64,000 nt of DNA, taken from an uncultured Alphaproteobacteria bacterium (GTDB lineage Bacteria; Pseudomonadota; Alphaproteobacteria; Geminicoccales; Geminicoccaceae). Where the stretch lies: positions 1 to 64,000 of the forward strand of contig CALKJU010000020.1 in NCBI GenBank assembly GCA_937995535.1. Reading direction: 5' to 3'. The notes beneath the pieces were generated by a model. The model ran no database searches. It was not told the origin of the DNA and saw only the letters and a list, made by a program, of their open reading frames with translations. Shown one piece after another: positions 57,916 through 61,720 of the stretch. Every line of letters begins with the position of its first letter. Positions within the stretch are counted from its first letter, which is position 1. The position numbers and the translations under genes were made by a program.

Positions 57916-58038
57916 CCGCATCTCTCAACCATAGAATGCAACGGAGCCGCGATTGTGCTACGAAGCAAAGCGTTCGGCGCAAGTCGGCTGTACACTTCGT
58001 CGCCGTAGCGGGCTTGTCGACATGAGGGAACTTGCTTG

Positions 58039-58773
58039 ATGCGAGCTGGCTTCGCGATCTGTCTGCCGGTGGCCGTCCTCGTCACCTTGACGCTGACCGG
58101 CTGCTTGGTGACGACCACGAAGGGCACGGGGGGGACCGACGTCGCCGGGTCGGCGAGCCTTTCGGCACCGCCCGCGCAGGCGGCGGCGGACCTGCCGCGC
58201 TGCGCGGCGCCGCTGGGAACGCTCGCCTTGGCCGAAGGGCAATATGCCGGCCTCAGCGGAAGGGGTCTGACCTCGCCGATGCCGGTGCTCCGCCTGATGA
58301 TCCAGCAATCGGGCTGTTTCAACGTCGTCGACCGCGGCGTCGCCATCGGCCTGATCCAGCAGGAGCGGCAGCTCACGGGCGGGAGCGCTGCCGGCAGCCT
58401 CGTCGCCGCGCAGTACTTCCTGACCCCGGAGATCATCTTCGCCGACGACAACGCCGGTGGCTCGAGCGCGTCGATCAGCACCTTCACCAGCCTGCTGCCG
58501 AGCACACTGCGCGGCCTTGCCGGCAGTGTCGCCTACGACGATCAGGAGGTGCAGACCGTCCTGCTCTTGACCCAGGGCAGCACGGGCCTGCAGGTCGCGG
58601 CGGCCGAGGGCAGCGCCCAGACGCGCGATGTGGGTATCAACGGCGCCGTGCTCGGCTCCGGTTTCACCAGTGCCCGCTTCGGCAGCTATGCCGACACGGC
58701 GATCGGCAAGACGGTCGTCGCGGCGTTGGCCGACGCCTACGCCAAGCTGGTCCGTCAGCTCGCCGCGAGCTGA
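58039..58773 (+). CDS. CsgG/curli-type lipoprotein
   Basis: A 244-residue lipoprotein with lipobox LTGC near residue 22. The core resembles the CsgG/HfaB family: VLRLMIQQSGCFNVVDRGVAIGLIQQERQL (about 84-113) then AQYFLTPEIIFADDN and a C-terminal helix (TVVAALADAYAKLVRQL). Family members form outer-membrane secretion pores or assist envelope assembly, but this lacks obvious curli partners. The similarity is moderate. ATG 58039 follows a GAGGGA. Confidence 0.72.
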   Translation: MRAGFAICLPVAVLVTLTLTGCLVTTTKGTGGTDVAGSASLSAPPAQAAADLPRCAAPLGTLALAEGQYAGLSGRGLTSPMPVLRLMIQQSGCFNVVDRGVAIGLIQQERQLTGGSAAGSLVAAQYFLTPEIIFADDNAGGSSASISTFTSLLPSTLRGLAGSVAYDDQEVQTVLLLTQGSTGLQVAAAEGSAQTRDVGINGAVLGSGFTSARFGSYADTAIGKTVVAALADAYAKLVRQLAAS

Positions 58774-58779
58774 CGGCAG

Positions 58780-59136
58780 TCAGCGCACGGTCGTACCGCT
58801 ATCGAAGGCGCCCCCAGCCCGGGCGCACTGTTCGCGTGTCAGGAGCCGTGTCCCGACCCAGGACGGATCGCCGGGGACCTGGCAGTGGACCATCAGGCCG
58901 CCGCCGGTACCGTTCTGGTACACCAATGCTCGGCACGCCTCGTAGACGAGCTGCGCCACCACCGCGGTCTCGACCCCGTAGAGCCGGTCGAGGACGCAGC
59001 GCGCAACCGCGGGATCGAGCCGGAGCGGCTCGTGCTCCTGAGCCGCGGCCCCAACGGCCGCACCGAAACCGACCAAGCCCATGAGGAGCACGCCGAGCGT
59101 GGCGGCCGTCGAGCGTGCGACGGGCTTCGATCTCAT
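58780..59136 (-). CDS. exported companion of the caspase-like protein (C-x18-C tail)
   Basis: A 118-residue protein with signal peptide (ARSTAATLGVLLMGLVGFGAAVGAAAQ) and four cysteines in the mature part. Residues 85-110, CQVPGDPSWVGTRLLTREQ then Cys104, match the last 30 residues of the upstream caspase-like protein (both C-x18-C with P-x-DP-x-W). The start ATG overlaps the protease stop, so the two are translated together. I know no family name for this tail. Confidence 0.73.
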   Translation of the reverse strand: MRSKPVARSTAATLGVLLMGLVGFGAAVGAAAQEHEPLRLDPAVARCVLDRLYGVETAVVAQLVYEACRALVYQNGTGGGLMVHCQVPGDPSWVGTRLLTREQCARAGGAFDSGTTVR

Positions 59137-60599
59137 GGCAGCCGCCAAGCTCCCTTGATCGCGTTGCATTGCGCCACCGTGACCAGCCGCTCGTCCATCC
59201 AGGCGGGATCGTCCGGACCGCGGCAGAGCACGAGGCCGCCGGGCGGCGACGCCTTCGGCGTGGGCGCGGGTGCCGGCGCCTGGGCTGGCGGTGCCATCAC
59301 CTGCTTCGTCGTGGACTGTGCGGCAGGTGCCGCCGGGAGCCGGCGCGCCTCGTCCTCGAGACGCGCCATCGTGGCGTCATCGAGATAGCCGGTCGTCGGC
59401 AAGCCTCTCGACACCTGGAAGGCGGCGATCTGTGTGCGGGTTCGAGGGCCGAACACGCCATCGGCACCGCCGACGGGGTAGCCGAGCCGGGCAAGCAGAA
59501 GCTGGACGCGGGTCCGCGCGGCGCCGTCGAGTCCAAGCGCGCGCTCCGTGACGGCCTCGGGCGGGTCGGGAGGTGGCGGTGGGTCGGGCTTCGAGGTGGT
59601 GGCCCGGTCGTCGCCTCCTGCGGTGCGCTGCGAGCGGTCGAGATCGTCGAGCTGCAGCCGGGCCATGGTGGCGAACGAGCCCTCCGGATAGCGCTTCAGG
59701 TAGTCGCCGAGGGCGCGCTGCTTGGTGCCCGGATCGGCGATCCGCTGGGTCGCGTCCCAGAGGCGCTGCTCGTCGGTCGTCAGCGCCACGACGAGATCGG
59801 GCGCCGGCGTCACCGTCTCGGCGGGTGTGGGCGTCGGTGGCACGAAATAGAAGTCGCCGACCAGCGAGGAATGGTCCCAAGGCACCTGGGCCCGGTCCGT
59901 CGCGGCGATGACGTCCTGGCGGACACGGGTCATGAGCTGGCGGATCTCGAGGCCGGGGGTGCGCAGATACTTCAGGAGCGCCGTCGTGAACGGGCTGTTC
60001 GGCCCGGTACCGTCGAGCGCCACATTCTCGGGCTCGGTGGCGTAGGCGATCAGCGTACCGACGCCGCTGCGGATCGCCGCGAGCCCGCTCGACACCGAGC
60101 GCGAGCGGGTGATCTTGCGCGCGAGCTGCTGGGCGAACGGATTGTCGCGGCAGGCATCGAGGACGACGATGCTGGTCCGGTCCGAGCTCTCGAGCAGGCT
60201 CAACACCTGCTTCACCTTCAGCGTCTCGAAGTCGAGATCGCTCTCGTGCTCGAGGCGCGCGTCGACCGGCACGAGGTAGTTCTCCCCGCCGACCTGCATC
60301 CCGTGCCCGGCATAGTAGAAGAGAGCGACTGCGGCGCCGTCGAGGGCACGGGCGAAGTCGCGCAGCAGGGCTGTCGTCGAGGCCGCGTCGAGGTCGATCC
60401 CCTCGAACACCTCGAAGCTCAACTCGCGCAGGGTCGCCGCCACGGCACGGCCATCGTTCGCCGCGTTGGCCAGGGCCGGCACGGTTCGATAGGCGCCGTT
60501 GCCGACGACGAGCGCCACGCGCTCGGCAGCCCGGACGGCGCTGGCGAACGAGAGCAGCACCAGCACGAGGGCGAGCGACAGCAGCGCCGGACGCGTCAT
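59133..60599 (-). CDS. exported caspase-like (C14) protease with peptidoglycan-binding domain
   Basis: A 488-residue secreted or periplasmic protein. The signal peptide ends AVRA (residue 25). The caspase/orthocaspase p20-like domain (26-255) begins RVALVVGNGAY and carries the dyad H99 (YYAGHGM) and C150 (VVLDACRDNP). A helical linker with TPR-like character (278-320) and a Pro-rich stretch lead to a peptidoglycan-binding domain (354-415, LLARLGYPVGGADGVFGPRT). The last 30 residues are a C459-x18-C478 module shared with the adjacent gene product. The dyad is intact, so activity is plausible. Confidence 0.93.
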   Translation of the reverse strand: MTRPALLSLALVLVLLSFASAVRAAERVALVVGNGAYRTVPALANAANDGRAVAATLRELSFEVFEGIDLDAASTTALLRDFARALDGAAVALFYYAGHGMQVGGENYLVPVDARLEHESDLDFETLKVKQVLSLLESSDRTSIVVLDACRDNPFAQQLARKITRSRSVSSGLAAIRSGVGTLIAYATEPENVALDGTGPNSPFTTALLKYLRTPGLEIRQLMTRVRQDVIAATDRAQVPWDHSSLVGDFYFVPPTPTPAETVTPAPDLVVALTTDEQRLWDATQRIADPGTKQRALGDYLKRYPEGSFATMARLQLDDLDRSQRTAGGDDRATTSKPDPPPPPDPPEAVTERALGLDGAARTRVQLLLARLGYPVGGADGVFGPRTRTQIAAFQVSRGLPTTGYLDDATMARLEDEARRLPAAPAAQSTTKQVMAPPAQAPAPAPTPKASPPGGLVLCRGPDDPAWMDERLVTVAQCNAIKGAWRLP

Positions 60600-60731
60600 G
60601 CTTGCATTCTAGCCGGCTCGGACGGCGCGCTCATCAGTCACGTGCCGCGTGGGGCGGGCGCCCGGCGACTCGCGGCCGGCGCGCGGCCTTGTGACTGGTC
60701 CGTGCTCGCCGGCACGGCGCACAGTCCGGCC

Positions 60732-61433
60732 ATGCGCACGCCCCGCCGTTCGGTCCTGCTCGCAACCGCTGGGCTCCTTCCGCGGGCTTGGGCTCGCGCA
60801 AGCGAGCCAGCCCAGGTGCTTGTCGAGCTGTTCACCTCGCAGGGCTGCAGCTCCTGCCCACCGGCCGACGCGCTGCTGGCCGAGCTGGCCGGGGATCCCG
60901 CCGTCCTGCCGCTGGCCTTCCACGTCACCTATTGGGACCGACTCGGCTGGACGGACGCCTTCGCCGATCTGCGGTTCGATCAGCGCCAGCGCGCCTACGC
61001 CAAGGTGCTGGGCGTTCCGCGTGTCTACACGCCGCAGGCGGTGGTGGCGGGCGAGCTCGACGTCTTGGGCTCCAGCCGTACCCGGCTGCTGGCAGCGATC
61101 GGCGTCGCGCGGACGCATGGCGAAGCGCGGCCGCTGCACCTCGAGGCGAACGGCAGGGTGGCCGTTCCCGCGGATCTCGAGCGGGGCGGGATGGAACTTT
61201 GGGCGGCGGCGTGGGATGGGCCGCGCACGGTGGCGATCGAGCGCGGTGAGAACGCCGGGCGAACGCTCACCTACCAGCATGTCGTGCGATGGCTGCAGTG
61301 TTGGGCGGACGCGCCCACGCTGCTGGCCCTGCCTGTGGACGAGCTGCGCAGCGCCGGTCTCGCCGGCGTCGCGGTGGTGGCGCAGCGCCGCGCGGACGGC
61401 CGGGTGCTCGCGGTCGGACGTTTGCCCCTCTAG
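60732..61433 (+). CDS. DUF1223 family exported protein
   Basis: A 233-residue protein with a signal peptide (RRSVLLATAGLLPRAWA) and the DUF1223 thioredoxin-like domain: ELFTSQGCSSCPPADALL (CxxC), HVTYWDRLGWTDAFA and GVPRVYTPQAVVAG. The redox motif suggests a periplasmic disulfide-related or protective role, unproven. Divergent from the caspase-like gene (133-base gap), convergent with the 94-residue gene. Confidence 0.88.
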   Translation: MRTPRRSVLLATAGLLPRAWARASEPAQVLVELFTSQGCSSCPPADALLAELAGDPAVLPLAFHVTYWDRLGWTDAFADLRFDQRQRAYAKVLGVPRVYTPQAVVAGELDVLGSSRTRLLAAIGVARTHGEARPLHLEANGRVAVPADLERGGMELWAAAWDGPRTVAIERGENAGRTLTYQHVVRWLQCWADAPTLLALPVDELRSAGLAGVAVVAQRRADGRVLAVGRLPL

Positions 61434-61435
61434 GC

Positions 61436-61720
61436 TCAGCAGGTGGTCTTGTCGGCGGAGGTGGGGCACTCCTTGAAGGTGAACGGCGCCAGCGGATCGT
61501 CGCGCCACACGTCGAAAACCCGCTCGTCGGCGCAATGGGCCTTGGCCATGACGATCTGCCGCCCGTCCACCGTCCGCTCGACCACCTGACTGACGAAGCG
61601 CAGCTCGCAGTTCTCGACCAGCGCGATCTCGTCGGCGAGCTGGGCCTGCCAGGACGGCTCCTGGCCATGGGCGTTCGCCGCGATCATCGCGACGATGGTG
61701 GCAAGCGCGGGCAGGCGCAT
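61436..61720 (-). CDS. small hypothetical exported protein
   Basis: A 94-residue protein: signal peptide MRLPALATIVAMIAANAHG, then a short mature domain with four cysteines (C38, C63, C86, C94) that could form two disulfides. No family recognised. The ATG at 61720 opens the signal peptide directly. It lies 91 bases downstream of the ankyrin lipoprotein gene on the same strand. Confidence 0.66.
   Translation of the reverse strand: MRLPALATIVAMIAANAHGQEPSWQAQLADEIALVENCELRFVSQVVERTVDGRQIVMAKAHCADERVFDVWRDDPLAPFTFKECPTSADKTTC

Follow-up and report, generated by a model that had tools for sequence, protein, structure and literature searches.

An exported orthocaspase-type protease and an overlapping small exported protein with a common C-terminal cysteine-pair module in the family Geminicoccaceae

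Described protease systems and the gene pair

Bacterial caspase homologues are common in Alphaproteobacteria, but to our knowledge little has been established about what they cut, what regulates them and where they are located. For the C14 family, the available excerpt of an orthocaspase survey (PMC6426788) describes a pair of Asp residues in the pocket for a basic P1 residue, as expected for Arg/Lys specificity, and the excerpt of another (PMC3501461) reports a peptidoglycan-binding domain on 11 orthocaspase sequences; a cysteine-pair tail with a coupled tail-bearing companion was not found described in either excerpt. Small proteins made beside a secreted cysteine protease are known from the pairs SpeB-Spi, staphopain-staphostatin and Bfp-Bfi: Spi is a propeptide analogue resembling part of SpeB, Bfi of B. 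fragilis has 116-138 aa and is encoded within 35 bp of its protease, and these neighbours are co-transcribed where tested (PMC2873492). Type IX cargo, including the gingipains and the KLIKK proteases, offers a case of exported proteases that share a C-terminal module with one another and with further proteins; in the KLIKK proteases this module comprises 86 residues (PMC4404884).

The window analysed here, 64,000 nucleotides of contig CALKJU010000020.1 from an uncultured bacterium of the family Geminicoccaceae (genome G000), carries a gene pair that resembles each of these systems in part. The first gene (59133..60599, minus strand) encodes an exported caspase-like protease of 488 aa, consisting of a signal peptide, a p20 caspase domain (PF00656, Peptidase_C14, residues 27-251, E 2e-42), Pro-rich linkers, a PG_binding_1 domain (PF01471, residues 359-414, E 4.6e-15) and a C-terminal tail. 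The intact dyad described in the earlier note is present: His99 (YAGH99G; codon 60303..60305, minus strand) is invariant in the caspase alignment, and Cys150 (DAC150R; codon 60150..60152, minus strand) is invariant across five related caspases. D49 and D148, likewise invariant in the alignment, would form an acidic S1 pocket; their correspondence to TbMC2 Asp95 and Asp211 was drawn from spacing rather than from structure, residues 46 and 49 being separated like Cys92 and Asp95, and D148 preceding the catalytic Cys by two positions. No separate p10 domain was matched by the general Pfam and NCBIfam models, while a dedicated p10 model was used in the excerpted survey (PMC6426788). With its p20 domain, His-Cys dyad and predicted acidic S1 pocket, the protein is, judged from its sequence, of the orthocaspase type, and the signal peptide and additional C-terminal domains are also features shared with bacterial C14 proteins.

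The second gene (58780..59136, minus strand) encodes a small exported protein of 118 aa with four cysteines (47, 68, 85 and 104), hereafter the companion. As noticed earlier, it starts inside the stop codon of the protease gene, the companion ATG overlapping the protease TGA as ATGA. The GC content by codon position of the two genes is similar (0.73/0.53/0.88 for the protease and 0.74/0.55/0.84 for the companion), and both proteins have export-type N-termini, which were assigned by eye.

Several other features lie nearby. A 772-aa open frame (59115-61433, plus strand) covers part of the caspase gene in antisense and continues into a DUF1223 gene (60735-61433, plus strand); high GC content seems to account for the antisense portion, the real gene starting near 60735. 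Converging on the DUF1223 gene is a frame (61436-61717, minus strand) whose product is small, looks exported, contains several cysteines and matched nothing in Pfam. Elsewhere in the same genome, a second caspase, apparently split over two contig ends (C100 in L180 and C112 in L206), has a C-terminal part that by eye resembles the FGE-sulfatase type.

The shared tail and its distribution

The C-termini of the protease (residues 454-488; 59136..59240, minus strand) and of the companion (residues 79-111; 58804..58902, minus strand) have a common module, C-x7-W-x3-R-x2-T-x2-QC-x4-G. The cysteines of the module, C459 and C478 in the protease and C85 and C104 in the companion, are 19 positions apart in both, and the P-x-DP-x-W and QC-x4-G elements pointed out in the earlier note were recovered in both tails. 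The alignment of GGLVL-CRGPDDPAWMDERLVTVAQCNAIKGAW (protease) with GGLMVHCQVPGDPSWVGTRLLTREQCARAGGAF (companion) scored 74, against a best score of 44 among 2000 shuffles, so the likeness is above chance. When the companion tail was used as a query against the whole 3.9-Mb genome, the best other site was the one at the end of the adjacent protease (E 0.0015).

A clear match was found in one of 60 relatives, G017, which belongs to another genus (g7) of the same family. The G017 locus (L085, L142) has the same gene order: the gene for a caspase-like protein with the tail MVSCTAPSGAAWAGVRFLTYQQCSEIGGDWR is followed after 34 bases by one for an exported protein of 109 residues, which has four cysteines and the C-terminus FVKCEVASDPEWIGFRLITRKQCDALEGHIRP, and then by a convergent gene for a CsgG-like lipoprotein homologous to that of the window. 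All four tails are identical in the spacing C-x7-W-x3-R-x2-T-x2-QC and have one Arg invariant in 4/4 copies, and each of the six pairings beats every shuffle. A homologous protease beside a tail-bearing small protein therefore does exist elsewhere, contrary to the possibility left open in the earlier note that it never would, and the original sequence observation is confirmed and strengthened by an independent genus. In L142 (86-1423), the G017 caspase gene comes after a DUF1318 gene and a part resembling the C-terminus of YdbH, by name an envelope lipid-transport set, which was not seen beside the caspase of the window.

Over 248 residues, the protease of the window and that of G017 have 54% identity. 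The peptidoglycan-binding domain is present in the window protease and missing from that of G017, and consequently the tail has been kept while the middle domain has not. The two tail-bearing proteases are likely orthologous on the basis of their shared layout, their caspase domains lying in an unresolved fork of the tree. Both companions have a first cysteine pair spaced C-x20-C and a second spaced C-x18-C; apart from the C-x20-C spacing, their N-terminal halves have few residues in common, and 9% of shuffles reach their alignment score.

Outside this locus, the tail was searched for at several levels. A profile built from the four tails found, among 31 genomes of the family, exactly two copies in the window genome and two in G017, all at the pair locus, and none on the other caspases of the family. 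No convincing copy was found with the tail profile in 385 genomes of the class or in 398 genomes of the phylum, where in large genomes part of the first-look candidates was scored, which may have let a few copies escape. Among 80 caspase loci taken from public genomes, none carried the tail by the profile or by a loose C-x14-24-C rule. A search of the 385 class genomes with the DNA pattern for C-x7-W-x3-R-x2-T-x2-QC gave four other matches, no more than the reversed control, and none of the genomes containing them had a tail-profile match. Weak profile matches in G081, G487 and G024 were rejected, being in unlikely frames or without the cysteine pair; the remaining weak matches were screened for C-x16-20-C with a Trp, and none resembles the module. 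The earlier suggestion that the tail might recur on other caspase-like proteins is thus not borne out: it is confined to a single type of locus, shared by two genera within one family. The statement that no name has been described for it holds, since Pfam, NCBIfam and the PDB gave no match to the tail. As far as these searches extend, the tail appears as an undescribed, family-restricted module rather than a general caspase tail, and the protease and companion are a real but rare two-protein unit of two genera in one family.

Finding the tail at the pair locus alone is what would be expected if it were a structural end-cap copied to the neighbouring gene by local duplication, with no joint function of the two proteins. 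The scores of the four tails do not separate them clearly into protease and companion copies, the companion-companion pair scoring highest (84) and cross pairs reaching up to 79. However, both copies, with identical spacing, occur in two genera whose proteases are about 54% identical, the gene order is also kept in both, and the tails have persisted where the intervening peptidoglycan-binding domain was not kept in both; a duplication without function is therefore a less likely version, and we consider it quite improbable.

The companion protein and its possible action on the protease

In the AlphaFold model of the companion, for which the other three tail sequences were included in the input, helices at residues 42-52 (with C47) and 58-75 (with C68) are predicted to form an N-terminal helical hairpin (residues 42-75; 58912..59013, minus strand) with pLDDT of about 75-84 over most of its length; its C-x20-C pair has the same spacing in the G017 companion. 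The tail is modelled as a strand at residues 82-86 (with C85), a strand at 97-100, a helix at 101-106 (with C104) and a strand at 110-116. With moderate confidence (mean pLDDT 68, pTM 0.38), the companion tail would thus be a compact beta-beta-alpha-beta fold following a helical hairpin.

Apart from the catalytic cysteine, the mature chain of either protease has no cysteines but the tail pair (in that of the window, all cysteines are 150, 459 and 478). Together with the even cysteine counts and the export-type N-termini, this suggests periplasmic disulfides. Our preferred reading, held tentatively and with somewhat less than even confidence, is that the orthocaspase-type protease and a small accessory protein would be made together and exported together to the periplasm, where each C-terminal module of about 30 residues would fold as a beta-beta-alpha-beta mini-domain, its two cysteines joined in a closing disulfide. 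As a common docking domain, the tail would place both proteins at the same envelope component, and there the companion would act on the protease or next to it. The shared tail above chance, the conservation of the pair and the lipoprotein gene in a second genus, and the presence of two tails per genome argue for docking at the level of sequence, as does, in the predicted structure, the compact fold of the companion tail; the moderate quality of that model, which matches no solved fold, counts against it. It is probable that the tail serves to gather both proteins at one location.

The main rival is inhibitor or decoy action, a decoy or regulator role having been raised in the earlier note: the companion could be a dedicated protease inhibitor protecting the periplasm, its tail copy pairing with or replacing the enzyme's own tail. 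The size of the companion, its adjacency to the protease gene and its export fit this role, and the inhibitors of SpeB, the staphopains and Bfp are likewise small proteins encoded beside a cysteine protease (PMC2873492). However, those precedents belong to other protease families (C10, C47), and in the SpeB-Spi type the resemblance concerns the propeptide, beside the active site, whereas here it concerns the far C-terminal tail. The companion is also without similarity to known inhibitors: in Pfam and NCBIfam no family was matched above its cut-off, and no solved PDB fold matched the model with E below 1. A bait-loop version is conceivable, in which the invariant tail Arg, held by the disulfide, would face the putative pocket formed by D49 and D148, but this Arg may be structural. 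On balance, we regard inhibition as unlikely. A more elaborate form, in which the tail is a disulfide-held Arg pseudo-substrate loop serving as a cis latch on the orthocaspase, with the companion copy acting in trans as a dedicated regulator and the whole assembled at the CsgG-like lipoprotein, appears very improbable.

Two other relationships of the companion were considered and rejected. The four-cysteine family VF_A0006 (NF041602) is alike in its cysteine number and matches the companion weakly over residues 45-75 (E 0.0012), which excludes the tail; the score of 18.6 bits is far below the cut-off of 65, and the G017 companion has no match. A match on a Paracoccus plasmid (E 0.4) falls in a reading frame that seems to belong to a bigger protein of an unrelated kind. 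No relatives were found in the viral contigs searched.

The CsgG-like lipoprotein and the possible site of action

The gene convergent with the companion gene (58036..58773, plus strand; 6 bases between the two stops) encodes a CsgG-like lipoprotein with the lipobox LTGC23 and a match to PF03783 (E 1.9e-6; 27.8 bits against a gathering cut-off of 20.8). Its structural model is poor, with a mean pLDDT of 58 and values below 50 for residues 140-166 and 199-217, the putative pore-forming segments; a Foldseek search with this low-confidence model returned CsgG structures first (E 4e-6). The lipobox, the profile match and the predicted fold are common to CsgG-type lipoproteins. The homologue in G017 had no Pfam match at 0.01, and no curli genes were seen in the stretches read.

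Four genera of the family have a CsgG-like lipoprotein gene adjoining a caspase gene. In two of these genomes, G002 and G004, the lipoprotein homologue (L136 2665-3441; L186 3984-4775) lies 14 and 105 bases, respectively, from another caspase gene on the same strand (L136 939-2651; L186 4880-6481), and neither tail nor companion is present. In the caspase tree these two caspases belong to a clade different from that of the tail-bearing proteases, which means that the caspase-lipoprotein link has arisen or been retained repeatedly; in a small unrooted tree, the lipoproteins from the four linked loci do not cluster together. The linkage exists in two forms, with the tail and companion and without them. 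It is broader than the tail itself. The linked caspases of G002 and G004 share another C-terminal region after an SH3_3 domain, with a conserved cysteine pair of its own (RCQQD ... TTGC). Among the lipoprotein relatives examined outside the family, none has a caspase neighbour.

One module at the C-terminus of two exported proteins beside a CsgG-like gene could also be a secretion or surface-sorting signal for outer-membrane export through the lipoprotein, for which the C-terminal domain shared by type IX cargo, as described for gingipains and others in the excerpts of PMC4804311 and PMC4560394, is a precedent. However, the type IX domain is longer and occurs on many proteins per genome, as would be expected of a general sorting tail, whereas the tail described here has about 30 residues and is found on two proteins per genome. 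The peptidoglycan-binding domain of the window protease suggests retention, and the lipoprotein pore is itself putative given the poor model. As with duplication, we rate this version as less likely, indeed improbable.

Under the preferred docking reading, the CsgG-like outer-membrane lipoprotein would be the first candidate for the common partner. Since the pairs in G002 and G004 lack both tail and companion, it is not obviously the receptor of the tail and not an obligatory one, and the occurrence of the same lipoprotein type elsewhere without a caspase neighbour also counts against docking on it. A co-made partner with the same tail, kept in two genera, is nevertheless a concrete candidate for the regulator or a co-subunit of one exported caspase homologue, and because caspase genes are linked repeatedly to that of a CsgG-like lipoprotein, the outer membrane is indicated as the site of action.
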